Assembly (NCBI RefSeq): GCF_001040845.1
Contig: NZ_CP011941.1
Coordinates: forward strand, 2,300,890-2,364,889
Direction of reading: 5' to 3'
DNA length: 64,000 nt
DNA from: Synechococcus sp. WH 8020
GTDB lineage: Bacteria > Cyanobacteriota > Cyanobacteriia > PCC-6307 > Cyanobiaceae
Shown: positions 8,749 to 31,250 of the stretch, one piece after another
How the letters are laid out: every line of letters begins with the position of its first letter
Position numbering within the stretch: the first letter of the stretch is position 1
Position numbers and translations under genes: made by a program
Notes under the pieces: generated by a model
The model's input: only the letters and a program-made list of their open reading frames with translations
What the model was told of the DNA's origin: nothing
Databases searched by the model: none

Positions 8749-9629
8749 GTGTGTCTTTTTCTTCTCCAATACTTCTCAAGGCATTCCCTCGTAGTGGTGG
8801 AACACTTTTTATTACATTGCTTGATGCTCACCCTGAGATAGCAATGTCATATGAAATTTATGAATCTAATCTTTTTGATTCAGATGCTATTCCACTTAAT
8901 CCATCGTTTTGTCTTGATATGCTTTCTAGGGATATTCATAGTGATGATATTTATAGAGTTAAATCTGTATCTGAACCACTCTTCAGGACTTTCTTATTTA
9001 GAGCGATTCGCGCCGGCTTGTGCGTTGATGACATTTGTACTGTTCTTGATTCTTTTGTTTCCAGTGGTAAATCTTTCTCGTCTTCCCCTGAGAGACTTGT
9101 TTTTATTGATTTATTGATGCAGGCTAAGTCTCAACAGCTTAAAAAAGCTCTATGGGGTGGAAAAACACAGTCCGACTTGTTTGCCCTTCAGGATCTTCAC
9201 TCTGACCCTGTATTTTTTATTATGCGCAGAGATTTTCGTGACGTTTATGCCAGTATGATTGTTAAGGGTAATTTCAAATATTCTCCTTCTGAAGCCGCTA
9301 CTCTTTGGGCTAACAACTTTACTCAATTTAGAGAATTCGCTTCCATTTCTTCTGCAAAGACTATGGAAATTGTTTACGAGGATCTTGCTTTGAATCCTGA
9401 GATCGTATTAAAGAATGTTTGTGATTTGATTGGCGTACAATTTTCTGAGGCTATGCTCTCTTTTCATACTAAAAATATGGCTTTATTCCGAAATCCTTTC
9501 GGTCATTTGTCCTCCGACCAGCTCAAGGCTGGTATCAATTCTTCTAGCATTGGCAAATGGAAATCTATCCTAAATTCTGCACAGATTGCCGAAATTGAAG
9601 AGATCTGCGGTGATCTTATTGACTTCTGA
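8745..9629 (+). CDS. Sulfotransferase family protein (paralogue of the first sulfotransferase)
   Basis: Predicted PAPS-dependent sulfotransferase of about 294 residues. The PAPS loop FPRSGGT is near the N-terminus and the 3'-phosphate motif MRRDFRDVYASM is mid-protein. It shares with the gene at 171 the strings RSGGTL, LDAHPE.AMSYE and the C-terminal NP.GHLS.DQ and SIG.WK, but ends about 10 residues earlier. GTG 8745 overlaps the preceding TGA as GTGA, so coupled translation is likely; TTG 8721 is an alternative that would extend the protein by eight residues. The acceptor is unknown. Context suggests sulfation of the same glycan handled by the flanking deacetylase-like proteins. Confidence 0.85.
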   Translation: MSVSFSSPILLKAFPRSGGTLFITLLDAHPEIAMSYEIYESNLFDSDAIPLNPSFCLDMLSRDIHSDDIYRVKSVSEPLFRTFLFRAIRAGLCVDDICTVLDSFVSSGKSFSSSPERLVFIDLLMQAKSQQLKKALWGGKTQSDLFALQDLHSDPVFFIMRRDFRDVYASMIVKGNFKYSPSEAATLWANNFTQFREFASISSAKTMEIVYEDLALNPEIVLKNVCDLIGVQFSEAMLSFHTKNMALFRNPFGHLSSDQLKAGINSSSIGKWKSILNSAQIAEIEEICGDLIDF

Positions 9630-9743: not shown

Positions 9744-10985
9744 ATGAAGCACCTTTGGATAGTTAACCATTATGCTCAGGAGCCATCAGGTCCAGGTGGC
9801 ACTAGGCATTTTTCTTTTGCTCGGCACCTTCTTGAGTATGATTGGAAAACTTTTATTATAGCTAGTAGTTGTGAACACAACACGGGGCGTCAGCGTTTAG
9901 GTGACTTTGAAACTCTTCGGGCTGATTGTGTTGACGGAGTTGATTTCCTTTGGTTAAAGGTTGCTTTTGAGCCTATTTCAGTTCTTTGGCTCCGTTTGTT
10001 TACGATGTTGTCGTTTGCATTCACTGTCCTTAAACCTGCAACTACGCGTGCCCTCCCCCTACCTGATCTTGTCATTGGCTCCACTGTTCATCCTTTTGCA
10101 GCACTAGCAGCTTTTTTCTTAGCTCGTCGCTACCGCGTTCCCTTTGTGTTTGAGGTTCGTGATCTCTGGCCTCGGACTTTGGTCGCTATGGGGGCAATCA
10201 GAGAACGTGGACCTTTTGATCTGTTTTTTGGCTGGTTAGAGCGCTGGTTAGCTTTCAGGTCATCTTCCGTCTTGGTTTTGATGCCTGGTGGCATTGACTA
10301 TTTTCACTCTCTTGGAATCCCTCGGCAGCGCTTAGTTTGGCTTCCAAACGGTGCAGAGCTTTCTGATTTCCCACCGCCACCAACTTGTATTAAAGCCCAA
10401 CCTTTTCAATTGTTGTATTGCGGTTCCCATGGTCCTGCTAATGCACTTGACACTGTTCTTGATGCCATGGCAATTCTTCAGACACGTGGTGTTTCTTCCA
10501 GCGCTCTAATATTGCGTATGATTGGAGATGGATCTTGTAAGGCTGATCTTCAGCAACGTGCACTTGATCTTGGTCTTTCTGGTGTGATTTTCGAGCCGTC
10601 AGTTCCCAAAAAGGTTTTGGCTGCGCTTATCAGTGATGCTGATGGATTTGTCGTTGCAATGCAACGACTGCCGGAGCTTTATCGCTATGGGATCAGTTTT
10701 AACAAGTTGTTTGATTACTTTCAGGCTGCTCGTCCGATTGTGTCGGCTTCATGCGCAGCCTATGATCCAGTTCTTGCCGCCGATGCAGGATTTGTAGTTC
10801 CAGCAGGTGACCCTTTGGCCCTTGCTGACGGTATTGACAAACTTCGTCAACTGCCATATTTAGAACGCCAGCGCCTTGGCTTAAATGGTCGTGTTTATCT
10901 CGAGCAGAATCACTCTTATCCACTGCTTGGTCAGCGACTAGCTTCTCACTTGGATTCTTTAGTTTCACATGATGACAATCGCTGA
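9744..10985 (+). CDS. Glycosyltransferase family 4 (WbuB-like)
   Basis: GT-B fold glycosyltransferase of 413 residues, expected to add a sugar from an NDP donor to a lipid-linked O-antigen or capsule precursor on the cytoplasmic face. The start LWIVNHYAQEPSGPGGTRHF and the mid-protein VFEVRDLWPRTL are typical of the WbuB group. The donor site near the C-terminus reads ISFNKLFDYFQAARPIV, with the K and E/D pattern of the family. ATG 9744 is preferred over TTG 9735. The last codons are notable: the TGA stop sits exactly where a dehydratase remnant begins in another reading frame, so the gene end may have been made by recombination. Confidence 0.85.
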   Translation: MKHLWIVNHYAQEPSGPGGTRHFSFARHLLEYDWKTFIIASSCEHNTGRQRLGDFETLRADCVDGVDFLWLKVAFEPISVLWLRLFTMLSFAFTVLKPATTRALPLPDLVIGSTVHPFAALAAFFLARRYRVPFVFEVRDLWPRTLVAMGAIRERGPFDLFFGWLERWLAFRSSSVLVLMPGGIDYFHSLGIPRQRLVWLPNGAELSDFPPPPTCIKAQPFQLLYCGSHGPANALDTVLDAMAILQTRGVSSSALILRMIGDGSCKADLQQRALDLGLSGVIFEPSVPKKVLAALISDADGFVVAMQRLPELYRYGISFNKLFDYFQAARPIVSASCAAYDPVLAADAGFVVPAGDPLALADGIDKLRQLPYLERQRLGLNGRVYLEQNHSYPLLGQRLASHLDSLVSHDDNR

Positions 10986-11143
10986 TCTTTCGCGCTAACG
11001 AGTGCGCTTTACCCCCGGATGTGCTCTGGCCCAGGTTGAATGATCTGGAGGCTGCAATTGCGGCACAGGATGTTGAGGGCTCCCTTGAGGTGTTGGCTGA
11101 ACTGGTACCTGAGTGGCGAAGAAGTGAGGTTCAGTCTGTTTAG
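10982..11143 (+). pseudogene. C-terminal remnant of a nucleotide-sugar 4,6-dehydratase (CapD/PglF-type) gene
   Basis: A frame from 10982 to TAG 11141-11143 reads LIFRANECALPPDVLWPRL and continues to LAELVPEWRR. It matches the end of the intact dehydratase encoded at 17526-19469 (LIFRAQERALPPEMLWPRL ... LAEFVPEWQR), with about 32 of 47 residues identical. It has no start codon and nothing of the other 600 residues. Its first bases (TGATCTTTCGCGC) are shared exactly with the intact copy near 19270 and coincide with the stop of the glycosyltransferase gene. This is a recombination scar, not a gene. Confidence 0.9.
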
Positions 11144-11485
11144 TGCATCTTTAAGGGTTCCAGCAGATCCTCAGGCTCTTTGGGGCGGTTGGCTCCGTTG
11201 AATCAGGCCGGCGCTGAAGAAACATTCTTTGCGATGCTTTGATGCGGTGAGATCTGACTTGTTCGCCCCAAAACCTTCAAGAGCTTTGCTGCTACCACCT
11301 TTGATGCGCTGTTCAAGGTTTGGCGACTCACTCACAATGGCCTTTGCATCAGGTGCGGGACAAGGACGCTTAATCTCAGACCAGATGGCATGTTATTGCG
11401 TACGGATTCATGAGATTCCCCATATATCTTGCTGATCGATTCGATCCATCTCCTTGCTCTCCTTTCTTCGGTTTCTAATTAGCTG
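11144..11485. other. Intergenic, 342 bp, no convincing gene
   Basis: No known RNA or protein recognised. On the minus strand a 54-codon frame from GTG 11335 to TGA 11171 reads VSESPNLEQRIKGGSSKALE, and the frame stays open upstream to about 11390. It could be the ruin of a small gene. A 68-codon frame on the + strand overlaps it and looks random. Confidence 0.4.
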
Positions 11486-12433
11486 ATGCCTGCTTCTCTC
11501 ATTCGTAATTTGGTGACCGGTGGTGCTGGTTTTCTGGGCTCCCATCTATGTGATCGCTTGATGGAAGCTGGAGAAGAGGTGATCTGCTTGGACAATTACT
11601 TCACGGGCCGTAAGGCGAATATTGCGCAGTGGATGGGCCATCCCCGCTTTGAATTGATCCGCCATGACGTGACCGAGCCGATCAAGCTTGAGGTGGACCG
11701 GATCTGGCATCTGGCTTGCCCGGCCTCACCGGTGCACTACCAGTTCAACCCGGTCAAAACGGCGAAAACGAGCTTCATCGGCACATACAACATGCTGGGC
11801 CTAGCCAGGCGGGTTGGGGCAAGGCTGCTGTTGGCCAGCACCAGTGAGGTCTATGGCGATCCTGAGGTGCATCCCCAGCCTGAGAGCTATCGAGGATGCG
11901 TGAACCCCATCGGCATTCGCAGCTGCTACGACGAAGGCAAACGGATCGCTGAAACCCTGTGTTTCGATTACCAACGGATGCATGACTTGGAAATCCGGGT
12001 GACGCGGATTTTCAACACCTATGGTCCGCGCATGCTTCCTGATGATGGCCGGGTGGTGAGCAACTTCATCGTGCAGGCGCTCAAAGGAGAGCCGCTCACT
12101 CTTTATGGCGATGGCAGTCAGAGTCGCAGTTTTTGCTTTGTGGATGATCTGATCGAGGGGATGATTCGCTTGATGAATGGTGCCCACACAGGGCCAATCA
12201 ACATTGGCAACCCAACCGAATTCACGATCCGGCAGCTGGCGGAGCTGGTGCGGGACAAGATTAATCCAGACTTGGAATTAATTTGTAAGCCACTGCCTCA
12301 GGATGATCCACTGCAACGGCAGCCCATTATCGATCTTGCCCAGAAGGAGTTGGCTTGGGAACCCTCTGTGGAACTTGAAAAGGGTCTGGAGCCCACGATT
12401 GCTTACTTCAAGGAGTTGCTTCTGTGTACATAG
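11486..12433 (+). CDS. UDP-glucuronate decarboxylase (UDP-xylose synthase family)
   Basis: Short-chain dehydrogenase/reductase of 315 residues that would decarboxylate UDP-glucuronate to UDP-xylose using bound NAD+. The NAD site is [11 protein letters not shown] at residues 11-21, the active-site region reads [12 protein letters not shown] and [12 protein letters not shown], and the catalytic Tyr and Lys sit in [11 protein letters not shown]. The [10 protein letters not shown] and NIGNP strings further on are also typical of this family. Length matches bacterial UXS proteins. It lies in a mid-GC region, unlike the AT-rich genes before it, and likely feeds pentose units into surface polysaccharide. 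Confidence 0.9.
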
Positions 12434-15692: not shown

Positions 15693-16336
15693 TGGCCGCT
15701 TTGCTTCTCCTCGGCGCGGGTGGCCATGCCCGGGTCGTCGCAGAAACGGCCTTGGCCACAGGTCGTTTCAGTCATATTTCCTTCCTCGATGATCGCTGCA
15801 CTGGCCCTAACCAGTTGCCCGATCAACTTGGCTGGCCCGTGATCGGACCTTTTGCTGCAGCTTTCGATCCCCAGATCTGTCAGCAATTCTCAGCAGCGCT
15901 GGTGGCCATCGGCAATCCCGCCGTGCGTTTGCAGTGGTTGCCGCGGCTTGTCACCGTTGGCTATGAGATCCCTGTTGTGATTCACCCGACTGCCTGGCTG
16001 TCGCCCTCCGCTCAGCTCGGTGTCGGCACAGTGGTGTTCGCCCAGGCCGCCGTCCAGTCCCAAGCGGTGATCGGTAGCGGTGCCATCCTCAATACAGGTT
16101 GTTCGGTGGACCACGACGTCCAGCTCGGCGATGGCGTGCACATCTGCCCCGGCGCTCGCCTTGCCGGCGAGGTGCAGGTTGGTGACCGAAGCTGGATCGG
16201 TATCGGCTCCTCTGTGATTCAGCAAATTTGCATCGGCGTCGATGTCACCGTCGGCGCCGGCGCCGCCGTGGTGCGAGATCTTCCCGATGGCGCCACCGCC
16301 GTGGGTGTGCCGGCCAGGGTGTTGCCCACCGTCTAA
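15692..16336 (+). CDS. Sugar O/N-acyltransferase, PglD/NeuD family
   Basis: Left-handed beta-helix acyltransferase of 214 residues. The N-terminal Rossmann-like part begins LLLLGAGGHARVVAE, as in PglD/NeuD/PerB proteins, and the C-terminal part has hexapeptide repeats (IGSGAILNTGCSVDHD, GVHICPGARLAGEVQVG). The His in SVDHD is the likely catalytic base. In the bacillosamine pathway PglD uses acetyl-CoA to acetylate the C4 amine of UDP-4-amino-4,6-dideoxy-GlcNAc. The start shares one base with the preceding stop (TGATG). Position between PglC-like and aminotransferase genes supports that role; O-acetylation of another sugar is the alternative. Confidence 0.85.
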   Translation: MAALLLLGAGGHARVVAETALATGRFSHISFLDDRCTGPNQLPDQLGWPVIGPFAAAFDPQICQQFSAALVAIGNPAVRLQWLPRLVTVGYEIPVVIHPTAWLSPSAQLGVGTVVFAQAAVQSQAVIGSGAILNTGCSVDHDVQLGDGVHICPGARLAGEVQVGDRSWIGIGSSVIQQICIGVDVTVGAGAAVVRDLPDGATAVGVPARVLPTV

Positions 16337-16362
16337 GTAGTCATCTTTTATTTCTTCATCGC

Positions 16363-17529
16363 GTGACCCTCGCTCCCTGGCCCCACTTCGAAGCCGATCA
16401 GATCGACGCTGCAAGCCGAGTGCTCTCCTCCGGCAAGGTGAACGCCTGGACAGGTCAGGTCACTCGCAACTTTGAGCAGGAGTTCGCCACTTGGTGCAGT
16501 AATTCACACGCGATTGCCATGGCCAATGGTTCCCTGGCCCTCTCGGCTGCGTATCTGGCCATCGGCCTGGGCCCAGGCGATGAGCTGATCACCACGCCGC
16601 GCACGTTCATCGCCACCGCCTCCAGTGCTGTGTTGCTGGGCGCCAAGCCGGTGTTCGCCGATGTGGATTCCGAGTCCGGCGCCATCACTGCCACCACGAT
16701 CGCGCCGCTGATCACCCCCCGCACCAAGGCCATCTCTGTGGTGCATCTTGGTGGCTGGCCTGCTGACATCCCCACGATCCTCGAGCTGGCCCGCGACCAC
16801 GGCATCGCCGTGATCGAAGACTGTGCACAGGCCCATGGTGCCCGTATCAACGGCCAGTCCGTCGGAAGCTTTGGTGATGTGGCCGCTTGGAGCTTCTGCC
16901 AGGAGAAAATTATTTCCACTGGAGGAGAAGGTGGGATGGTCACCACCAACCGCGCAGACCTCTGGGATCTGATGTGGGCCTTCAAAGACCACGGCAAAAC
17001 CCATGAAGCGGTTTACGGGCGCGAGCATCCGCCCGGCTTCCGCTGGCTTCATGAGCGCTTCGGCTCAAATTTCCGCCTTACCGAACTGCAGAGCGCCATC
17101 GGTCGCATCCAGCTCCAGCACCTGCCCGAGTGGACCGCCGCCCGCACCCGCAATGCTCTTTTTCTCGCAGAAGCGCTTGCCGACCTGCCCGCCGTGCGGG
17201 TGCCCCTGCCGCCAGAAGGGATAACTCACGCCTGGTACAAGTTCTATGCCTTCGTGAAGCCGGAAGCTCTGGCTGATGGCTGGAACCGCGATCGTATCCT
17301 CAGCGAGATTTCAGGACTCGGCTATCCCGCCCTCTCCGGTAGCTGCAGCGAGATCTATCTGGAGAAGTGCTTCCAGGAGGCTGGGCTTGCTCCTGCTGAG
17401 CGTTTGCCCTTGTCGCGTGAGCTGGGTGAAACCAGCCTGATGTTCTTGGTGCATCCCACCATCACCCCCGAGCAGATGGCCAGCTACGCCGAGGCTGTGC
17501 GGTCAGTGGTGAAACGGGCCTGCAGATGA
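16363..17529 (+). CDS. DegT/DnrJ/EryC1 aminotransferase, PglE-like
   Basis: PLP-dependent sugar aminotransferase of about 388 residues. Lys182 in SFCQEKIISTGGEGG is the predicted Schiff-base lysine; IEDCAQAHGA carries the Asp that contacts the PLP ring nitrogen. RFGSNFRLTELQSAIG is another family mark. I chose GTG 16363, 26 bp after the previous stop; the same frame runs open upstream to 16228 but gives an Arg-rich, non-conserved leader inside the acetyltransferase gene. It would aminate the 4-keto sugar made by the dehydratase encoded next. The stop overlaps the next ATG by 4 bp. Confidence 0.85.
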   Translation: MTLAPWPHFEADQIDAASRVLSSGKVNAWTGQVTRNFEQEFATWCSNSHAIAMANGSLALSAAYLAIGLGPGDELITTPRTFIATASSAVLLGAKPVFADVDSESGAITATTIAPLITPRTKAISVVHLGGWPADIPTILELARDHGIAVIEDCAQAHGARINGQSVGSFGDVAAWSFCQEKIISTGGEGGMVTTNRADLWDLMWAFKDHGKTHEAVYGREHPPGFRWLHERFGSNFRLTELQSAIGRIQLQHLPEWTAARTRNALFLAEALADLPAVRVPLPPEGITHAWYKFYAFVKPEALADGWNRDRILSEISGLGYPALSGSCSEIYLEKCFQEAGLAPAERLPLSRELGETSLMFLVHPTITPEQMASYAEAVRSVVKRACR

Positions 17530-19469
17530 AGCACATTTCATTTGAAAATTTGGTACGCCGGTCTCCGCTCTTTCGGCGTCTGTTGTTGATCGGCATCGAC
17601 GCCCTGTTGCTTCCCCTGGCGGTGTGGCTCAGCTTCTGGTTGCGATTGGCCCATCCGTTTCATCCAAACTTTCAAGCAGCAGGCAGCTGGTTGCTGCTTG
17701 CGGTGGTGCTGATCGGTCTGCCTTTGTATGGCGTCACCGGGCAATACAAAGGCCTCACCCGTTACGTGGGCAGCCATGCTTTCTACAGGCTCACTGGTCG
17801 TAATGCTCTTTTGGTGTTGCTCCTGACCGCGGTGGGAGTGATGCTGCGCTTACCGATGCCGCCTCGCAGCAGTTGGATCCTGCTTTGGTTGTTGCTCACC
17901 GGCTTCACCGGAGCGATGCGTTTTGCCCTGCGTGATCTGCTTTTGTCGCTGCGCACTGCGGAGCATAAGCAGATGTTGCGCGTTGCCATCTATGGAGCCG
18001 GTGAGGCCGGTGCCCAGCTCGCCGCGGCTCTTCGTCTGGCTGGCAATCACCAGATCATCACCTTTCTCGATGATGCACCAACGCTCTGGCGGCGCACGAT
18101 CAACGGTATCCCGATCCAGCCGCCCCAGGTGCTGAGCCAGATCCAGGACAAGCTCGATCAGGTCTTGCTTGCTATCCCCTCGCTTCCCCGTAGTGATCGC
18201 CGTCGCATCGTGGCTGAGTTGCAACGCAAGGCGATCCCGGTCTTGCAGGTCCCCTCGGTTGATGACCTCACCTCCGGTCGGGCCCAAATCGATGCACTCC
18301 GCCCCGTCTCCATCGAAGACCTGCTTGGTCGGGATACAGTGCCGCCCGTGCCGGAGCTGCTCGGCCCTGGTCTGCGTGATGCGGTGGTGTGCATCACCGG
18401 TGCCGGTGGTTCGATCGGTTCGGAACTCTGCCGGCAGATCATGCAGCTGGCCCCCAAGGCCTTGCTCCTGCTCGAGAGCAGTGAACCGTCGCTCTATGCC
18501 TTGGAGCAGGAGCTCCGGCAGCAGTTGCCTGCTTCTATGACGCTGCTGCCGGTGCTCGGTAGTGCCGCCGATCCAGCCCTTGTCCAGCGCTTGTTTGCAG
18601 ACCACGGCGTGGAGACCGTGTTCCATGCCGCCGCCTACAAACACGTACCCCTGGTGGAAGCGAACCCGCTGGCGGGCCTCGCCAACAATGTCGTTTCCAC
18701 CCGGGTGCTCTGTCAGGCCGCCATTGCCGCGGGCGTTAGCGAACTGGTGCTGATCTCCACCGATAAGGCGGTGCGTCCTACCAATGTGATGGGCGCCACC
18801 AAGCGTCTGGCCGAGCTGGTGGTGCAGGCCTCAGCTCTTGAGGCGTCGAAACGCGCCAAAGCTTTCGGCCAGCCCGGCACTCGTTTCGCCATGGTGCGCT
18901 TTGGCAATGTGTTGGGCTCGTCGGGGTCGGTGGTGCCCCTGTTTCGTCGCCAGATCGCCGCTGGTGGTCCGATCACCCTTACCCACCCCGAGATTATTCG
19001 CTACTTCATGACGATCCCGGAGGCGGCTCAGCTGGTGCTACAGGCCGCCACCCTCGCCAAGGGCGGTGATGTTTTCTTGCTCGATATGGGTGAACCGGTG
19101 CGAATTAAAGATCTTGCCGAGCAGATGGTGCGTCTGAGTGGCCTCTCGCTGCGGGATGTCCAGAATCCCAGCGGTGAAATCGAAATCGTCTGCACGGGCC
19201 TGCGCCCCGGCGAGAAGCTCTACGAGGAACTGCTGATCGAAGCTGAATCAGAACCTACCAAGCACCCGTTGATCTTTCGCGCCCAGGAACGGGCCCTGCC
19301 GCCAGAAATGCTCTGGCCTCGATTGGATGCGCTCGTCGCCGCGATTTCGAATCAGGAAGTTGAGGGCGCCTTGGCGTTGCTGGCGGAGTTTGTGCCCGAG
19401 TGGCAGAGGGGTGATGGCGTGAAGGGAGCTGGTGCTGAGGTCACTACTCCTGTTGAGAACAATTCATAG
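17526..19469 (+). CDS. Membrane-anchored UDP-GlcNAc-type 4,6-dehydratase (PglF/CapD family)
   Basis: A 647-residue protein. About four N-terminal transmembrane helices (residues 15-135) precede a first nucleotide-binding fold (IYGAGEAGAQLAAALRLAG) and the catalytic SDR domain with VCITGAGGSIGSELCRQI near residue 290. The active-site segment STDKAVRPTNVMGATKRLAE has Met in place of the usual SDR Tyr, the mark of membrane-bound 4,6-dehydratases. It should convert UDP-GlcNAc to the 4-keto-6-deoxy sugar, the first step of bacillosamine-type synthesis. Start ATG overlaps the aminotransferase stop. A remnant of a second copy of this gene's 3' end lies at 10982-11143. Confidence 0.9.
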   Translation: MKHISFENLVRRSPLFRRLLLIGIDALLLPLAVWLSFWLRLAHPFHPNFQAAGSWLLLAVVLIGLPLYGVTGQYKGLTRYVGSHAFYRLTGRNALLVLLLTAVGVMLRLPMPPRSSWILLWLLLTGFTGAMRFALRDLLLSLRTAEHKQMLRVAIYGAGEAGAQLAAALRLAGNHQIITFLDDAPTLWRRTINGIPIQPPQVLSQIQDKLDQVLLAIPSLPRSDRRRIVAELQRKAIPVLQVPSVDDLTSGRAQIDALRPVSIEDLLGRDTVPPVPELLGPGLRDAVVCITGAGGSIGSELCRQIMQLAPKALLLLESSEPSLYALEQELRQQLPASMTLLPVLGSAADPALVQRLFADHGVETVFHAAAYKHVPLVEANPLAGLANNVVSTRVLCQAAIAAGVSELVLISTDKAVRPTNVMGATKRLAELVVQASALEASKRAKAFGQPGTRFAMVRFGNVLGSSGSVVPLFRRQIAAGGPITLTHPEIIRYFMTIPEAAQLVLQAATLAKGGDVFLLDMGEPVRIKDLAEQMVRLSGLSLRDVQNPSGEIEIVCTGLRPGEKLYEELLIEAESEPTKHPLIFRAQERALPPEMLWPRLDALVAAISNQEVEGALALLAEFVPEWQRGDGVKGAGAEVTTPVENNS

Positions 19470-23651: not shown

Positions 23652-24601
23652 ACCAACTCCGGCGGATGTGAATGACTTGTTTTTAGCTTGACGCTCTTGT
23701 TACGGCAGCCTGACGCAACATCAACAAAGGGGATTGAAAGCAGCGAATAAGTCAGGATTGGTAAACACTACCAGAATCGCCTTCAGCAACTGCCTTCTCT
23801 CCTGACAATTGGTTAACGCCTTCGATTGCTGCTGATTTATTTCTAAGACTGTAGACGTCGGTGGTTTTCTTTGGAAAATGTCTAATAATATTTCTGAGTT
23901 AGCGGATAATCGTAATTTAGGGCTAGACGAGAATATGGCTTGCCATATTGAGTAGGCATACTTGATGCTTTATTTGAAAGAATACCTCTTACTGATATGA
24001 TCGCCAATGTTGTATGGAATCAAGATGCATTTCTGTATTCTGGAGCCCTTCGGAAATAATGCACGAAACTTTTTGTCTCCTCAATCCTAGTGGATTAATA
24101 GTTGCGACCTATCCAATGTGTTTAAATAATGCCGATTCTAGTGATGGATAGCATATACTGGGCCAGTGGACCGAATGAATTTTCCCAACCCTGGATCACC
24201 AATTAAATATTTATTCCGAGTAAGTCATGTAGGGTTAGGGCGTAAATTTTGATACGATAAGAAATTAATCTCAACACGTCCTTTCCTCATTCCAGAAAAA
24301 ACTGCTCTTAAGTCTGAATGTTTTCAGGAAATCGTTCAGCTTGGAATATCCTCTTGAAAGGGATAAGAGATTATTTGATTGAGTAAACGATGGTGAGAAA
24401 TTTGCCCTGGAAAATCATGACTTTTGCAAGGCCTTTTGATTGAAAAAAATATCTAAATGGCCAAAATATTATTCATCAGTTTTTCTTTGCCTCATTGTCT
24501 TTACTGTGCTAAGGTTAGCTATTGATGATAGGTTAGCTATCCTTTTGATATAATGTTTTATTTCTAGCCTTGTTCACATTGTTGATTACCTTGCCACTAC
24601 T
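23652..24601. other. AT-rich intergenic region, 950 bp, at the edge of an accessory island
   Basis: Base composition drops sharply after the rnc start. No convincing gene is present; a 25-codon frame at 23878-23955 is the longest with a plausible ATG. The region contains a perfect 8-bp inverted repeat (AATATGGC-TT-GCCATATT, 23932-23949) and, near its right end, a promoter-like site for the next gene. The left island boundary probably falls near 23700. Confidence 0.5.
24513..24554 (+). promoter_or_regulatory. Extended -10 promoter with a duplicated 10-bp element upstream
   Basis: TGATATAAT (24546-24554) is a perfect extended -10 (TGnTATAAT) placed 48 bp before ATG 24602. Directly upstream, GGTTAGCTAT occurs twice, at 24513-24522 and 24531-24540, 18 bp apart and covering the usual -35 region. 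No good -35 hexamer is seen, which fits an extended -10 promoter. The repeats could be an activator or repressor site. Confidence 0.55.
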
Positions 24602-26617
24602 ATGAATTGCTCTGCATACCAAGGCTTTTTAGACAACAATTTGGCCACCCACGTAGATGATAATTATGGTGAAGAATATGTGGATTTTCTTCGATACGAA
24701 GTTCTTGCTGCAGGGATGGATGAAATGCCCGATGATGCTGAGCTTTGTTTGAGATTTTACGATATTTGCTTTAGAAACCGATTTTATAACAAAGCACAAG
24801 ATGCAGCTAATAGACTCTATGAAATCACATCAGATAAAATTTGGATCTTTAATCAACTTCGATGTCTTGTCCTTTTAAATGATTTCATATCAGCAAATGA
24901 ATTGTATCAGAAACATCTTGAGGAACGAGGTAATCCAGTAATAAATGATTGGGGGGCGATTCAACTTATGAGAGATACAATTAATAGTAATTTCTTTCTT
25001 AGAATGCAAGAAAATGAATACGAAAAACTTTTCTTTATCAAGCCTCTGCTAAGAAAGTTTGGGCGACATCTTAAATTCTTATCATATTCTTTGATGGATA
25101 AATTTTTCTACGATTTGCTTGCTAAAGCTCAGGATTATGTCGAATCAAAAGGTGCTCGATTGTACTATATCAGCTGTTCAAATCTATTGACGGTAAAAAA
25201 CAAATCAGATCTCGAGCTATCATTTTTAAAACAGTCAATAAATTCATTAAATAGTAAGGCAGAAAAAAATAGGGTTAATTGGCTTAAAAGCAATCCAGAC
25301 CATATGCACCAAATTCATAAGGATCTTCCCAATTATTCTTCAGAATATATATCACAAATATGTTCCGGTCCTAAAAATCTTATTCAGACGGTAAAGCTGG
25401 TCATGTCTGACTGGCAAAGCGACTTTTTAAATGTCAAAGATGGGCAACGAATTACAACAGACCAACCTAACGATTTTGATCAAAATATATTAATCTTTGG
25501 CGCTTCTGATGTATTTGGCTATGGCACAGAAGATAAGAATACATTTTGCAGTTTTTTACAAAGAAGAATCAATTCAAATACTTCAAATAATAGATTATGT
25601 GTCCAAAATTATGGTATCCGTGGCTGTACACTTCCTTTCACCGTAAATAATTTACTTCAGACAAATGTTAAGGATGATGATATCGTTATTCTCTATGGTT
25701 TTCCTCAATTGTCAAGTGAAAATGCTGCTTCTATCGGTATTGAGTCACATCATTTAGATTTTTCAAGGCCTCATAGCTATGGCGAAATTTTTATTGATCA
25801 ATCTCATTTTGCATGGTCTGGTCATAAAGTAATTGCGGATTATATCTTTGATTTGTTATTCACATCTGCCATGAGTAGTTCCAAAAATAAATACTTCCCA
25901 AGTCACAATCATATTCATAATGCTGATAAATGTATTCAATTCTGCAAATACCTTTTATACCGTCGCACTTATCTTTCTATTGAAGAGAGTTCAATGTGTA
26001 GCTATCTTTCATACCTTGATCAAGAAAAAGTACCTGTTGAAGGTTTAATAGGTTCTGTTGCTGTTAATTGCAACCCAATGACTCTTGGGCACCTTCATTT
26101 ACTTGAATATGCAGCTTCAAGATGCGATTTTTTATATGTATTCGTAATTGAGGAAGATAAGTCTTATTTTTCTTTTCGTGAACGATTCAAAATCGTATCA
26201 GAGGGCTTGGCTCATTTAGATAATGTAAAGGTGATTAAAGGTGGTCGATATATTTGTACAGATATCACCTTTCCAGAGTATTCTACTAAAGGTGACAATA
26301 ATAATGTTATTGCAGATGCATCAATGGAAGGTTGGTTTTTTGCGGAATTTATTGCTTCCAAGCTAAATATTCAACGTATTTTCCTAGGCGAAGAACCAAC
26401 TTGTCGAATTACTCAACAGTATAATGAACAAATTAAAGTAATACTACCAAAATTCGATATTCATGTTGATATTATCAAGCGTATTTCACTTAATGGAGAT
26501 GTTATAAGTGCTTCTCGTGTAAGAGCTTTATTAAAAGAGCAAAAATTTGACTTGATCCGTCAAATAGTTCCTCAAGCAACTTATGATTTGCTTTCTTCAG
26601 AGTATAGAATTAATTGA
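24602..26617 (+). CDS. Fusion of helical N-terminus, SGNH-hydrolase-like and CitC-type nucleotidyltransferase domains
   Basis: The protein has 671 residues. Residues 1-280 are mostly helical and may form TPR-like pairs. Residues about 295-420 look like an SGNH esterase/acyltransferase: LIFGASDVFGYG (a GxSD version of the GDS block) and, at the end, DQSHFAWSGHKVIAD, the D..H..GH block. Residues about 480-671 match the adenylyl/cytidylyl domain of citrate lyase ligase: NCNPMTLGHLHLLEYAA (HxGH-type site as TLGH), a C-terminal GEEPTCRITQQYNE and ISASRVRALL. No citrate lyase genes are nearby, so the CitC-like part has probably been recruited for another job, perhaps activating a small acid or alcohol-phosphate for glycan decoration. 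Function unknown. Confidence 0.75.
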   Translation: MNCSAYQGFLDNNLATHVDDNYGEEYVDFLRYEVLAAGMDEMPDDAELCLRFYDICFRNRFYNKAQDAANRLYEITSDKIWIFNQLRCLVLLNDFISANELYQKHLEERGNPVINDWGAIQLMRDTINSNFFLRMQENEYEKLFFIKPLLRKFGRHLKFLSYSLMDKFFYDLLAKAQDYVESKGARLYYISCSNLLTVKNKSDLELSFLKQSINSLNSKAEKNRVNWLKSNPDHMHQIHKDLPNYSSEYISQICSGPKNLIQTVKLVMSDWQSDFLNVKDGQRITTDQPNDFDQNILIFGASDVFGYGTEDKNTFCSFLQRRINSNTSNNRLCVQNYGIRGCTLPFTVNNLLQTNVKDDDIVILYGFPQLSSENAASIGIESHHLDFSRPHSYGEIFIDQSHFAWSGHKVIADYIFDLLFTSAMSSSKNKYFPSHNHIHNADKCIQFCKYLLYRRTYLSIEESSMCSYLSYLDQEKVPVEGLIGSVAVNCNPMTLGHLHLLEYAASRCDFLYVFVIEEDKSYFSFRERFKIVSEGLAHLDNVKVIKGGRYICTDITFPEYSTKGDNNNVIADASMEGWFFAEFIASKLNIQRIFLGEEPTCRITQQYNEQIKVILPKFDIHVDIIKRISLNGDVISASRVRALLKEQKFDLIRQIVPQATYDLLSSEYRIN

Positions 26618-27809
26618 TTACTCTTTTCAGGGAACAGGTAAGGTCGTAGTATTTAGATATGGCGAGAATTATGTGCGCTCTTGTTCTGATAAATGAAGAT
26701 ATCGAATCGCCATTCTCTCTAAGCAAGATTTTGCCGTTACATATTATTTTTTTCTTGATTTCAGCAAAAAGTTTATGCGCTAAATCAAGTGACATTTGGC
26801 ATTTACTTTCTCGATGAATTTCACAGATTATGTATAAAGCATGTGCAAGGCCGATACCTCTTGCAGGATTTTGTTTTCTCTTTGCATTCGCTTCGCTTAT
26901 CGGAAAATCATAAATTTTATCATTGCGGCAAAACTTTAATAGCATCAATATTAGATCATTGTAATTGATTGATGAACCTAGATTTCCTCCAAATTTTTTA
27001 TAATTAAAAAGACCATCACAAACAAATGCTTCATGGAGCAAGTCATTGTTTCGATTATTTTTATTTGATGGATATTCCCTGCCAAAATAATCCCATGTAG
27101 GAAGTTCTATATCTGACCTTTTGCAATTTAATAAATATAATATTGCTTGGTCTGTGCTGATTTCTGCATTTAAGTTTACTTGTTTTGAGTAGTGTGATGC
27201 ACGTTGAATTGCTCCTGCCATCAATGATATAGCATTCGTTACATGGAAACTATGATTTCTAAGTGTTGAATACCAGTAAATTTTTTCACCATTAATAACT
27301 GTGCTGCAATTTTTATCCCAGCTCGTTGCTGCAATCAAGGCTGATTTGATGCACATCTCTCTTGTCTCATCTTTGATATCAGATATATCACACATTGCGT
27401 GTATACCGTGAACAGTTGGAACATTGAAGCCTGTATTTTGCTTGCATGGTAATACATCAAGCCAAATTTTTCTTTGATATGGTAGTGTCCACACTGGTAG
27501 TTCGGTGCTCTCGCATCTTTGATGTTTAAGTAGCCATTTAACGATGTGATTTGTTAGAATATTGGTGTCAATGAAAGCATTTTGTTGCTTGAAATGCTTA
27601 ATACTTGCTTTGGTTGTTAATGTTGTTAGAAATAGGGAATAGGCTGTAGGCCAATGCATTTCTATTGTTTTACTATGTGGATCATTTCCATACCCTACTT
27701 CTGGAATTTTGACCTCACTCCATAGCATTTGCATTGCCTTTAATGTATCTCGTTGATAACGTCTTGTTCTTCGGTTTGCTGAAAATGCATTAAAGTATTT
27801 TTTAATCAT
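26610..27809 (-). CDS. Protein of unknown function, 399 residues
   Basis: I do not recognise a family. The protein is largely helical with regularly spaced aromatic and charged segments (for example WPTAYSLFLTTLTTK, TVHGIHAMCDISDI, GIGLAHALYIICEIH), which could be an alpha/alpha toroid like those of lyases and glycosidases; that is only an impression. There is no signal peptide or transmembrane helix. The stop overlaps the convergent fusion gene by 8 bp, and the ATG overlaps the methyltransferase stop by 4 bp, so it is translated with the FkbM-like gene. Codon use is AT-rich like its neighbours. Confidence 0.6.
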   Translation of the reverse strand: MIKKYFNAFSANRRTRRYQRDTLKAMQMLWSEVKIPEVGYGNDPHSKTIEMHWPTAYSLFLTTLTTKASIKHFKQQNAFIDTNILTNHIVKWLLKHQRCESTELPVWTLPYQRKIWLDVLPCKQNTGFNVPTVHGIHAMCDISDIKDETREMCIKSALIAATSWDKNCSTVINGEKIYWYSTLRNHSFHVTNAISLMAGAIQRASHYSKQVNLNAEISTDQAILYLLNCKRSDIELPTWDYFGREYPSNKNNRNNDLLHEAFVCDGLFNYKKFGGNLGSSINYNDLILMLLKFCRNDKIYDFPISEANAKRKQNPARGIGLAHALYIICEIHRESKCQMSLDLAHKLFAEIKKKIICNGKILLRENGDSISSFIRTRAHIILAISKYYDLTCSLKRVIN

Positions 27810-28885
27810 GATTGATTTAGTTTTGCGGTCAAGTTGTAAAAATTGCCATGCCTTTCATCTACTACTATTTTTCCTCCATTGGCTAGGATGATTTTTTTGG
27901 CTTTATCTGTTAATGCTATTCGATCTTGTTTGAATCGTGTAATTATATTTACATAGTCAATTTTTTCCCAGTATAAGCCTAATCCCATTAACGCTTCGAT
28001 TTCGGCACCATTGAGTTGAAGGTTCAAGAAATTAATCTTTTCAATACCATGTTTTGTAAATATTTTCTCTAGCGTCATCGTGCCTACTGTGGTCTTCTCT
28101 GGTGAAGACTTTTCATCAACTTTAGCAATTGTATTACTCATGCGATTTGTGCCATACTGAATCATCTTTGTGTTTTCGTTCCAAATTGCAGTGTTTTCGC
28201 ATTTGACCCATTCACTCATATTGTTTTGAATTATGTTTTTTTCAAGTAGTTTGTAATTTTGCCTGTCAATTTCTATTGCTAAAACTTTACCTTTTGGTCC
28301 AACACGTTTCCCAAATGCAATGGTTTTATAGCCAACATATGCTCCAGCCTCAATAATAGTCCCACCTTCTAATGGCAAATACTGGTCACCAGGCACGCGA
28401 CAGTCTCCATGTCTAAAGCTGCGGTAAACAGATGATGCAGCAAAGAATGTTGGACATTTCAAATGATTTGGTGATAAATCTTTTAGCAACCAATACGCAG
28501 CATATTGTTTTTTAGATCCCTCCCAGTCATTAAAAGTAAAACCATCATTGGTCTTGATTATGTATTCAATTGGTTGTGTTGCTTCCACGGATATGACACC
28601 ACTTAATTTTCCTGCAAAATCTAGTCTATCTGCATTTGTGGGGAGTAGCCGAAAACCAGATTGAATTATTCTTATAGTAGCTAGCTCAAAATTTTCATTG
28701 GTTTGTACTGATAGGCGATGAATTTTCTGTGTGTATTCTTTTGTTGACAGATGCTTCCAAAGCAATGTTGAGGCCTTTAGTATTATTTTAAGTTTTGCCA
28801 CTGTTCCGAGCTTTTTTCTGTCTTTGATTATTTCAGGTAAATCATATTTCGCTCTAGCATCATTCTTTGGTTTGCTGTTAATCAT
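27806..28885 (-). CDS. FkbM-family SAM-dependent methyltransferase
   Basis: A 359-residue protein whose middle carries the FkbM pattern: GGTIIEAGAYVGYKTIAFG (SAM site near residue 172), GKVLAIEIDRQNYKLLEKNI, then TVGTMTLEKIFTKHGIEKIN and FLNLQLNGAEIEALMG. In the last motif the usual KxDxxG(A)E acid is Asn (LQLNGAE), which could lower activity. The N-terminal 110 residues are not conserved. FkbM proteins O-methylate sugars or polyketides. It is first in a two-gene minus-strand operon, coupled by a 4-bp overlap to the unknown gene at 26610. Confidence 0.75.
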   Translation of the reverse strand: MINSKPKNDARAKYDLPEIIKDRKKLGTVAKLKIILKASTLLWKHLSTKEYTQKIHRLSVQTNENFELATIRIIQSGFRLLPTNADRLDFAGKLSGVISVEATQPIEYIIKTNDGFTFNDWEGSKKQYAAYWLLKDLSPNHLKCPTFFAASSVYRSFRHGDCRVPGDQYLPLEGGTIIEAGAYVGYKTIAFGKRVGPKGKVLAIEIDRQNYKLLEKNIIQNNMSEWVKCENTAIWNENTKMIQYGTNRMSNTIAKVDEKSSPEKTTVGTMTLEKIFTKHGIEKINFLNLQLNGAEIEALMGLGLYWEKIDYVNIITRFKQDRIALTDKAKKIILANGGKIVVDERHGNFYNLTAKLNQS

Positions 28886-29618
28886 GAAAATCGTGCTCTT
28901 CGAAGAAATTCATTTGTACATATTAACCCATGCCTTGGCATTTTATCATGCAGTGCCAATGTGTTGCGTTATTGCCATTTAAACCGTATTCGCATATGAC
29001 TGTCATTGATTCCTTATCTCGATGCTCTTTGTCAGCATAAATGTCTTTATCTGTTTGTGGGTTCAAGATCAATGTGTAATTCAATTTAAGTCTGATTTTT
29101 TCATGCAATCCTTTTGTATTTGAAGCAGGTTCTGTGTCTATAGAGTTGAGCTATTCTGGGGTGATTTTGATTTAAAGCCATTCCTTTTGCTTGGTTGCTA
29201 TTCTTTGGCATTTTTGTCGTGGTTTTAGTTTTTTATTTGCGGATTCTTTTTGAATTGATTTTGTTTGTTCGTTTGGCTTCTTCTGCCTGGCCGTTTAAAT
29301 AATGTAGTTGTTTTTGTTTTCCTTTGAGTGCTTGAAGCCTTATCTTTTTTGTTTTTGTGGAGTTAGGTTGCTTGCGAAATTTAAATGCTTGGTTCTGGAT
29401 AGCAGAAGATATTAATGTACGGAGTATCCCTGTTAGGTTTTTTCGTGAAATTCTTAAAACCCGCTGGGTTCTTTTTGGCGTTGGCCAATTAGGTTGTTGA
29501 CATAATGAGTCCTGTTTTGACAGGTGCTCCAGAGCCAGCTTGAAGTATTGCTAATCACTCTTAATGCAGAGCTTCATCATGTTCGGTTCTCTATGTTTTG
29601 CTATAATTTTAATGCTCC
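28886..29618. other. Intergenic, 733 bp, AT-rich, no gene seen
   Basis: T- and G-rich on the + strand with frequent stops in all frames. A weak hairpin (AACCC-GCT-GGGTT) followed by CTTTTT sits at 29458-29475 and could terminate + strand transcripts. I see no RNA gene or promoter that I trust. Confidence 0.45.
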
Positions 29619-30885
29619 TCATGGGTTGGAAAGTAGGTTTTCTCGCTTGGGATTGGTGTTTTTTGACATAAACATTTTCTCGTGCTTCGTTTCCCACTGG
29701 ATGACACGACCAAGGCGGTCGATGGCACCACGAACAGCGGCTTCGCCTTTTGAGTTGGGCTCAGACCAATCGAACATGGCGATCACCCTGTCGACCTTGT
29801 ATCGAGTCAGCTCGCGTAGACCCGGCTTGAGGTGTGATCTCCCTTTTTTGTCCTTTTGGCAGCCGTTCCAAACACCAGACAGCCCGATCGCCAGATAACC
29901 AGCAGTAAGCAGCGCCGCTGTTTTCTTCGCGCCTTCAGTGACGAACAAAGGGACGCCTTGGCGGAGGAACCAACGCCAACGATCTTCAGGGGTGCGGGGC
30001 TTCTGATCCCATTCGGCGTCGTCTTCCCACTTCTTATATGCAGCCAATAAACCGTGGTTCTTGGCGATGCGTTCACCGATGTGTCGCTGTCGTCCAGCTT
30101 CGGGAAGTAGCGACCGGTTTCGGGGTCTTTCTTGAAACCAGGGCGCGGGTGGTCTGGCTTGAAGCAACCCCAAGGTTTCGTGGATTCTTTCCGCCCCAAA
30201 GACAAGGTGCGGCAGAACCAGCCACTGCGAAGGACTTCAGCCATGCGTGGGCGGTCTTTGGCTTCATCGCGACCACCAAGCGGACGCAACAGCTTGAAGA
30301 CGGTGTCCCCTGAAAGGGACTGCAGGTTCATTCGTGCCAGCTCTTCATCGATGCCAGACCCCTCAACCCATTCAGAAAGGTGTTTGGGGTTGATTGCTTC
30401 CTGGCATGTTTCCGCCTTGGCGGATTTTCTTGTGGAGACAGAAGTTGGCTTATGTGACGTTCTGGGAAGAGTCGCGACCGCCAAAAAATCCATCGTTCGC
30501 TGATGGGTCTGCTGTCGCGTTCGTGCCGTTTCTGGCTGATCTCCTTCAGTGCCGCTGAAAGGTGATCTTCAGGTCCAGGTTGTCGTGTTCGTTCAAAGCG
30601 ACGTTGTATCTGCTGGCGTTGATAACCACGTGTCGCCTTGGGTAAATGCTGGAAGTCGGTGAAGTAAGAACAGGACCGTTCCAATGCAGTCCGTTCACTT
30701 TCCGTTAAATCCCGAAGCTTCAGGGACGGAATCGACGGTTTTGTGTTTTGCGTAGCGAGTTGACAGTTCGAACCTTTCGAATCGCTGTCAGGGACTGCAA
30801 CCGCTGCATGTGGAGTTAAAAGCCCCCCAGCCACGCTTCGCGTAGTAGGGGGGTGAAAGCAGGGCGTAAGCCGGGTTCTGTTCAC
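29619..30885 (-). pseudogene. Frameshifted DUF3854 (primase/TOPRIM-like plasmid replication) protein
   Basis: Three overlapping minus-strand frames join into one protein. The first ends near SRPISERWI; the second begins DFLAVATLPRTSHKPTSV and contains LSEWVEGSGIDEELARMN; the third contains WRWFLRQGVPLFVTEGAKKT, LAIGLSGVWNG and RVIAMFDWSEPNSKGEAA. The order matches DUF3854 proteins of cyanobacterial plasmids and islands, where a GAKKT-type segment and an acidic DxS stretch form a TOPRIM-like core. One frameshift falls at an A6 run (30483-30488, T6 on the coding strand) and a second between about 30060 and 30110. The start of the open frame overlaps the 3' end of rnpB by some 38 bp, so the true start is probably further in. 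Confidence 0.75.
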
Positions 30886-31250
30886 CCTTCCAAGGAAGGG
30901 GGGTGATCATCTATCTGGGATCGCCGTTACCGACGACCTCGAGCGGCGCACAAAGGCGGAACGGGGGAGATGGCCACCCGTCGTTCCTAGGCCTTGCTCC
31001 CAGCCGGGGTTTACCGAGCCAGCACCTCTCGATGCTGCTGGTGCGCTCTTACCGCACCTTTGCACCCTTGCCTGTGCCAGCGGAACCGGCCATCGGCGGT
31101 GTGTTTCTGTGGCACTCTCCTCACGGTCACCCGCACTGGGCGTTACCCAGCAAGCCTGGCCATCGGGGAGCCCGGACTTTCCTCAACCGATGGCTGCAGC
31201 CCGAAGGCAACAACCATCCATTGCGATCACCTCGCCTACTTTCAACCCCC
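30848..31250 (-). ncRNA. rnpB: RNase P RNA (class A)
   Basis: The minus strand carries the universal rnpB core near its 5' end (GAGGAAAGTCCGGGCTCCCC), the conserved mid-part GGTAAACCCCGGCTGGGAGC, and the 3' core CAGAACCCGGCTTACGCCC. The ends pair as helix P1: GGGGGTTGAAAGTAGGC at 31250-31234 with GCCCTGCTTTCACCCCC at the 3' end. The length of about 403 nt suits a cyanobacterial type A RNA, the catalytic part of tRNA 5' processing. End positions are estimated from P1 pairing. Confidence 0.93.

Follow-up and report, generated by a model that had tools for sequence, protein, structure and literature searches.

The gene and its locus

The window analysed here is a stretch of 64,000 nucleotides from the genome of Synechococcus sp. 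WH 8020, a one-contig genome of 2.66 Mb with a completeness of 99.99%, whose gene content suggests a marine picocyanobacterium. It contains a gene for a protein in which a TPR-like region, a predicted SGNH domain and a nucleotidyltransferase domain of the type found in citrate lyase ligase (CitC) are fused. An earlier note, made from the sequence alone, had described this gene as an SGNH hydrolase fused to a CitC-type nucleotidyltransferase behind a long helical N-terminus, and a Pfam match, profile comparisons and predicted structures all agree with that description. The features of the gene are as follows (ORF, open reading frame; pLDDT, predicted local distance difference test; pTM, predicted template modelling score; PPAT, phosphopantetheine adenylyltransferase).

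24602..26617, forward strand: TPR-SGNH-CitC-type fusion protein, an intact ORF of 671 residues with an ATG start (AlphaFold2 model, mean pLDDT 85.7, pTM 0.80)
24671..25051, forward strand: N-terminal helical TPR-like region, approximately residues 24-150 (14-member profile against engineered TPR proteins; all-helical model)
25367..25876, forward strand: predicted SGNH hydrolase/acyltransferase core, approximately residues 256-425 (VIA-align Z 13.3 to CgnD 8a2n; hhalign)
25505..25507, forward strand: candidate nucleophile S302, in block I (GASD), from the aligned members
25796..25807, forward strand: block V, D399-x-x-H402, from the aligned members
26039..26611, forward strand: CitC-type HIGH nucleotidyltransferase domain, residues 480-670 (PF08218; PPAT fold)
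26072..26092, forward strand: NPMTLGH nucleotide-binding motif, residues 491-497 (conserved in fusions and CitC-length domains)
26504..26524, forward strand: ISASRVR motif, residues 635-641 (conserved in fusions and CitC-length domains)

The structure was modelled on an alignment of 14 fusion members. The proteins of Vibrio sp. THAF190c and of the Smac51 plasmid, described below, were excluded from the modelling alignments, and one member (L014) is represented by a shortened frame (10001-11890), without the stretch that begins at its ATG at 9794.

Taken by itself, the window protein gave no Pfam match to TPR for its N-terminal helices at E-values of up to 1. The profile of the 14-member family matches engineered TPR proteins at 2.3e-18, and TPR families of Pfam are present in up to four of the 14 members. 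A TPR-like character of these helices is thus supported at the level of sequence profiles. The highest mean Kyte-Doolittle hydropathy over 19 residues is 1.86 among all 14 members and 1.19 in the window protein, which implies that the fusions have no strong transmembrane stretch.

Relatives and distribution

No full-length relative of the window protein was found in 299 other genomes of its family or in 385 other genomes of its phylum; weak partial matches came from one of the family sample and three of the phylum sample. The two samples partly overlap and, like those of the families and the class below, are drawn from larger groups. A scan of genome contigs with the single protein gave no relative. 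On plasmids, a tblastn search matched 81 records; among the 40 listed, only Vibrio sp. THAF190c was reached through the SGNH part, with 39.7% identity to the window protein over residues 222-668.

When genome contigs were searched with an alignment of the window and THAF190c proteins, 13 fused loci were obtained. They belong to Roseovarius, Leisingera, Ruegeria, Thalassospira, five Vibrio/Vibrionales, two Photobacterium, Sulfitobacter and a Selenomonadaceae metagenome-assembled genome (MAG), and their proteins are 27-39% identical to the window protein. This search ran through two nucleotidyltransferase peptide patterns, and the 13 loci are therefore those that carry these peptides.

Even close to these loci the fusion is uncommon. 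Of 197 genomes sampled from the family to which the Vibrio rotiferianus genome belongs, 3 have it, two of them already among the loci found, and 19 other genomes of that sample have ORFs of CitC length (336-387 residues). Among 248 genomes sampled from the Roseovarius family and 289 sampled from the class of the Thalassospira genome it is present once each, in the query genome itself. One scan of viral contigs found no relative, and the three matches among phage records are each to the CitC part only. The fusion gene is rare and patchy, and recurs in distant bacteria.

It is worth adding that the Smac51 plasmid protein (L009:1-2736; 911 residues) has TPR and PF08218 matches over cut-off in a domain order unlike that of the fusion. 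Its N-terminus was read by eye as an SGNH core, and its gene lies close to cysD, cysC and a gene read by eye as a sulfotransferase.

The CitC-type nucleotidyltransferase domain

Residues 483-664 match the Pfam family PF08218 (Citrate_ly_lig) from end to end (model positions 1-182; E 7.1e-56, 189.2 bits against a cut-off of 20.9), and the three motif blocks quoted in the earlier note all lie inside this match. The score for PF01467, the general cytidylyltransferase family of Pfam, is 16.7 bits, which is under its cut-off. With 12.4 bits, the match to PF05636, the family of the tRNA acetate ligase TmcAL (COG1323), stays under the cut-off of 27 and places the window protein outside that family; TmcAL is not known to have an SGNH domain.

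The predicted structure of residues 480-670 matches phosphopantetheine adenylyltransferases (Z 18.3, root-mean-square deviation (rmsd) 2.2, 154 residues aligned). A TxGH motif and an ISxSxxR-like motif are present and the model has a PPAT-like fold, as expected of a HIGH-type nucleotidyltransferase, and an intact domain of the HxGH type is predicted; the earlier note had named its absence as grounds for abandoning the assignment. The likeness to CoaD/PPAT is one of fold: identity is about 20%, the fusion is multidomain, and PF08218 is its best family.

The signature residues are conserved very strongly. N491, P492, T494, G496 and H497 are identical in 14 of 14 fusions, and also throughout a comparison of 17 fusions with 24 CitC-length domains, in which S636, A637, S638, V640 and R641 are identical in every sequence of both sets. 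Altogether 44 columns are at least 90% conserved both in the 17 fusions and in the 24 CitC-length proteins, and at 40 of the 44 the residue is the same. Two motif patterns served to select the rows for this comparison; every given locus yielded a row, so that none was lost to the filter, and the motif residues are invariant also in the 14-member alignment, which was built without it. The 24 CitC-length rows are putative CitCs, comprising 21 Vibrionaceae ORFs chosen by length and motif, two from Enterobacteriaceae and one from Fusobacterium. The 40 shared columns, together with the 189 bits for PF08218 against 16.7 for PF01467, point to adenylation of a carboxylic acid.

The remainder of the protein does not resemble CitC. 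CitC forms acetyl-AMP and its GNAT domain carries out the transfer, the canonical acceptor being the thiol of an acyl carrier. In the CitCs of Klebsiella and Fusobacterium a GNAT domain (PF00583) is found over cut-off ahead of the nucleotidyltransferase. No GNAT family was found at an E-value of 1 in the window protein, L018, L024, L026 or the Smac51 protein, each scanned singly, nor among the 25 families listed for all 14 members. Against the CitC model TIGR00124 of NCBIfam the window protein scores 166.7 bits, under the cut-off of 262.1, and covers only model positions 123-328, the C-terminal part; three of its relatives score 168-185 bits, also under the cut-off, whereas the Klebsiella and Fusobacterium CitCs score 390 and 309. 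Because the GNAT half was not found, the TIGR00124 score lies under its cut-off and the citrate lyase genes citF and citD are rare in these genomes (see below), the fusion is, judged by sequence, not a citrate lyase ligase. Its architecture suggests that the GNAT module of CitC has in effect been swapped for an SGNH module. L027 and L028, which duplicate L025 and L018, were left out of a FastTree tree of the domain. In this tree the fusions including Smac51 form one group with a local support of 0.98, on a limited sampling of CitCs; Smac51 branches outside the other fusions, with a support of 0.70.

The SGNH domain

This domain is much less obvious in the sequence. The window protein gave no Pfam match to an SGNH family, and the NCBIfam model GDSL_LA_2490 matches the SGNH part at 1.3e-4, far under that model's cut-off. 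The family profile, compared with solved GDSL/SGNH enzymes, gave a best value of 4.4e-4 over the whole chain, with no single stretch significant alone. Comparison of the SGNH part with stand-alone SGNH proteins using hhalign gave 1.1e-17 and 1.8e-5.

Residues 143-432, modelled separately, reached a pLDDT of 85.1. The predicted SGNH part is closest to CgnD (8a2n), with Z 13.3, rmsd 2.9 and 172 residues aligned in VIA-align, and then to esterases, acetylesterases, TesA and thioesterases at Z of about 7-9. On this model it adopts the fold of the SGNH superfamily. Foldseek was weak on the SGNH part, with a best E-value of 4e-3.

The putative catalytic residues are largely conserved. The position of S302 holds serine in 13 of 14 members and cysteine in L026, H402 is kept in all 14, and D399 in 13. 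The window protein and five other members (6 of 14) have the DxxH spacing of a typical block V.

The stand-alone SGNH proteins, from cyanobacteria and their relatives (L004-L006, L052 onwards), share with the fusion a GxR motif and the regions of blocks I and V. They differ from it in having hydrophobic N-terminal stretches (Kyte-Doolittle means of 2.47, 2.90 and 1.89 in the three measured), no nucleotidyltransferase, and about 100-150 extra residues between blocks III and V by manual count. This short distance in the fusion, together with a strand (residues 186-192) that precedes block I, prompted the idea of a circular permutation in which strand 4 has moved. A permutation is not claimed here: hhalign of residues 150-255 with the stand-alone proteins gave only E 0.083, which leaves it as a structural hint.

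Citrate lyase genes and gene neighbourhoods

The earlier note had remarked that no citrate lyase gene lies nearby. None was recognised in the 64-kb window, and CitF and CitD gave no match anywhere in the host genome. CitF and CitD occur together over cut-off in only one of the 13 genomes searched, that of Vibrio sp. 99-8-1 (L021), which has two copies of each; in the host, and likewise in 11 of the 12 relatives' genomes, neither reached its cut-off, the Selenomonadaceae MAG having a CitF match under cut-off. The 13 genomes exclude the Photobacterium genome of L022. A constant association of the homologues with citrate lyase, which the earlier note had considered fatal to its proposal, is therefore not seen.

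The neighbours are an FkbM methyltransferase and a protein that matches nothing in Pfam, NCBIfam or the PDB, as the earlier note had in essence stated. The latter, of 399 residues, is encoded at 26610-27809 on the reverse strand, convergent with the fusion gene (26610 against 26617). The FkbM gene, also on the reverse strand, overlaps the downstream 399-residue gene by 4 nt, and the two likely form an operon. An operon of the fusion and the FkbM gene was rejected, and a functional link of the fusion to either neighbour is not supported: the strands are opposite, and neither the FkbM nor the 399-residue protein has a similar ORF among those clustered from the relatives' flanks. A defence function was also set aside, since PADLOC has no family for the fusion or the 399-residue protein; the FkbM protein matches PADLOC mad2 over 52 residues only.

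The survey of homologous neighbourhoods that the earlier note had called for used flanks of up to 10 kb to the left and right of the fusions, and shorter ones for L024, whose whole contig spans 4 kb, and on one side of L017 (2.4 kb). The flanking genes were assessed by clustering and by reading, with Pfam run on two of them only. The neighbours of L014 fall outside this classification, because an opposite-strand frame displaced its fusion gene in the clustering. Immediate neighbours are shared only by L019-L023 and by THAF190c-L020, all of them close relatives of Vibrio type. Four broad families (c1-c4, on reading genes for signalling, for ABC transporters and for protease-like proteins) are common to distant loci at scattered positions, and only one of them adjoins a fusion (L022). 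No carrier or partner gene was recognised beside the fusions, in flanks partly scanned with family models and with CitD as the carrier family searched. The absence of CitF and CitD from 12 of 13 genomes, and the lack of shared neighbours beyond close Vibrio, fit an enzyme that works alone.

Sulfotransferase genes stand beside the Thalassospira relative (Pfam) and near the Smac51 gene; none was recognised beside the remaining relatives, and a link to sulfation was not used. At L016:11720-18854 the Ruegeria relative has for neighbours what look like genes of a nonulosonic acid (sialic-acid-type) pathway, together with one for a PhyH-like oxygenase (PF05721). Two genes of that pathway fall into clusters with genes of the window at 16228-19469.

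Genomic island at rnpB

The fusion gene lies in a region where GC content falls to 33-37% (approximately 24.0-29.5 kb), against about 50-60% outside. The features that define this region are as follows.

23752..30849, strand not assigned: AT-rich inserted island with the fusion gene, approximate ends (GC content; comparison with relatives)
30852..31242, reverse strand: rnpB (RNase P RNA), with the island at its 3' end (RF00010, 246.5 bits)

Five of 21 other matched genomes were compared at the site. In four of them (L092, L093, L095 and L096) the homology at 23.54-23.75 kb is followed by that at 30.85 kb within about 120 bases or after a short overlap, and in L094 the homologues of the two flanks stand about 970 bases apart. 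None of the five has a match to the island proteins at the site. With the flanks nearly adjacent and the island proteins not found there, about 7.1 kb is taken to be inserted, and the fusion gene is horizontally acquired. The relatives' alignments break at 30847-30850, so that the junction on the right falls at the rnpB 3' end; at the left junction (23728-23790) an incomplete and diverged copy of that end is present. A 21-nt repeat at 23767/31342 was rejected as the attachment site because the relatives place the right junction at the rnpB 3' end. As a site of integration rnpB seems unusual.

On the right side of the island, next to rnpB, there are broken frames (29619-30885, reverse strand) that include a DUF3854 domain (2e-19), which has been described in Rep proteins of cyanobacterial plasmids (PMC10079941). 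In L093, of the same genus, about 3.2 kb lie between tRNA-Arg (10179-10252) and an mscL-like gene (approximately 13421), compared with 33 bases in the window. The tRNA-Arg/mscL-like region may be a wider integration hotspot.

Proposed function

TmcAL, which makes acetyl-AMP from acetate and ATP and uses it as acetyl donor (PMC7408541), provides a precedent for the activity proposed here for the CitC-type domain. PatB, an SGNH enzyme, is described as transferring acetyl groups through a Ser-acetyl intermediate (PMC9487903). The simplest reading is of an acyl-AMP-forming domain that feeds an SGNH transferase. We hypothesise that the fusion is a soluble, self-contained acyl-activating acyltransferase, a reading that in our judgement has an even chance of being right. 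The substrates of the CitC-type domain would be ATP and a small carboxylic acid in its free form, most probably acetate, and its products acyl-AMP (acetyl-AMP for acetate) and pyrophosphate. S302, with H402 and D399, would take the acyl group from acyl-AMP, and the SGNH domain would pass it to the hydroxyl of an acceptor that the TPR-like helices may hold or select, presumably in the cytosol. The SGNH domain would thus stand where, in canonical CitC, a GNAT domain is coupled to the nucleotidyltransferase. To this extent the activation and transfer suggested by the earlier note are plausible.

A more specific version, in which an O-acyltransferase independent of coenzyme A (CoA) hands acyl-AMP to the SGNH serine within one protein and forms an ester on a TPR-bound glycan or protein, is put forward more tentatively. 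We infer that such an activity would be undescribed, as the earlier note had supposed; no paper on a CitC-type/SGNH fusion was found among openly licensed PMC papers, which is weak evidence for novelty.

The likeness to known systems is in each case partial. With CitC (TIGR00124, PF08218) the fusion shares a complete C-terminal nucleotidyltransferase with the same signature residues, and it differs in its SGNH and TPR-like parts, in having no detectable GNAT domain, and in falling under the equivalog cut-off. With TmcAL it would share the formation of acetyl-AMP, although it lies under the PF05636 cut-off. With the SGNH O-acyltransferases PatB and OatA it shares the SGNH core, the putative serine nucleophile and the His/Asp pair. 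PatA, located in the membrane, is thought to serve PatB, and OatA is itself fused to an AT3 domain (PMC9487903), whereas in the fusion the SGNH domain is joined to a predicted acid-activating domain, there are no strong transmembrane stretches, and the block III Asn is not conserved. CgnD, the best structural match of the SGNH part, is a slow leader-peptide hydrolase of crocagin biosynthesis, and no nucleotidyltransferase is reported for it in that source (PMC10070186).

Several observations weigh against this proposal. No conserved Asn is found in the block III region of the 14 fusion members, where the oxyanion Asn would be expected, and replacement of this residue abolished the activity of OatA; AlgX/AlgJ, PatB1 and XOAT1 are described in the same source as managing without it (PMC9487903). 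In seven Vibrio/Photobacterium members DxxH is replaced by D-x6-H. The Selenomonadaceae member L026 (9356-11203) has Cys for the nucleophile and TxxH with no Asp, its nucleotidyltransferase motifs being intact. The structural matches of the SGNH part are mainly esterases and thioesterases rather than transferases, and since the closest, CgnD, is a slow peptide hydrolase, hydrolysis is also a possible activity of the SGNH part. The same parts could form an ATP-wasting hydrolase, and an acid other than acetate could be activated. Finally, several of the genomes searched for CitF and CitD are drafts or MAGs, in which absence counts for less.

Other explanations were considered. The nucleotidyltransferase could make a CDP- or ADP-alditol or sugar, with the SGNH domain acting separately as an esterase on the product or on a glycan. 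Cytidylyltransferases belong to the HIGH superfamily, each of the 14 members has a PF01467 match at E ≤0.1, and the window reads as holding a polysaccharide region (for example a sulfotransferase at 8721-9626). PF08218 nevertheless outscores PF01467 by about 170 bits, the CitC signature residues are retained, the fusion gene is not in an operon with the genes around it in the window, and a glycan cluster was read at the Ruegeria locus alone. We consider this unlikely, and of the two substrates offered by the earlier note, a small acid or an alditol phosphate, the acid is the better supported.

The SGNH domain might instead remove acyl groups, the CitC-type domain re-activating the acid for a carrier thiol or another acceptor. 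Such recycling would suit the many acetylesterases and thioesterases among the nearest SGNH folds, and the carrier thiol is the acceptor of canonical CitC. It is improbable in view of the 12 of 13 genomes in which no CitD-type carrier was found, and of the flanks, where no adjoining carrier gene was recognised by clustering and reading, CitD being the carrier family scanned for.

A decaying or non-catalytic accessory gene, kept on a mobile island by chance or for binding only, would account for the AT-rich inserted island with its broken DUF3854 gene, for the rare and patchy distribution, and for the loss of two of the three SGNH triad residues in L026. We regard this as distinctly unlikely, because the reading frame is unbroken and 13 of 14 members, whose identity to the window protein is 27-39%, retain the catalytic residues of both domains. 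Least probable is a role in citrate or malonate metabolism, as an unusual ligase or a deacylase for the lyase carrier protein: membership of PF08218, the two CitF and two CitD of Vibrio sp. 99-8-1 and the weak CitF match in the Selenomonadaceae MAG are set against the host and 11 other genomes with neither over cut-off, and against a partial TIGR00124 match with no GNAT half found.

If the fusion is indeed an acyl-activating acyltransferase, it would represent a route of O-acylation outside those that use acyl-CoA and the membrane proteins MBOAT and AT3, which has travelled through marine bacteria as one gene, and it would predict O-acylation powered by ATP and an acid in free form. In citrate lyase ligase, the half that activates the acid would then be a portable module, whose partner for acyl transfer can be exchanged.

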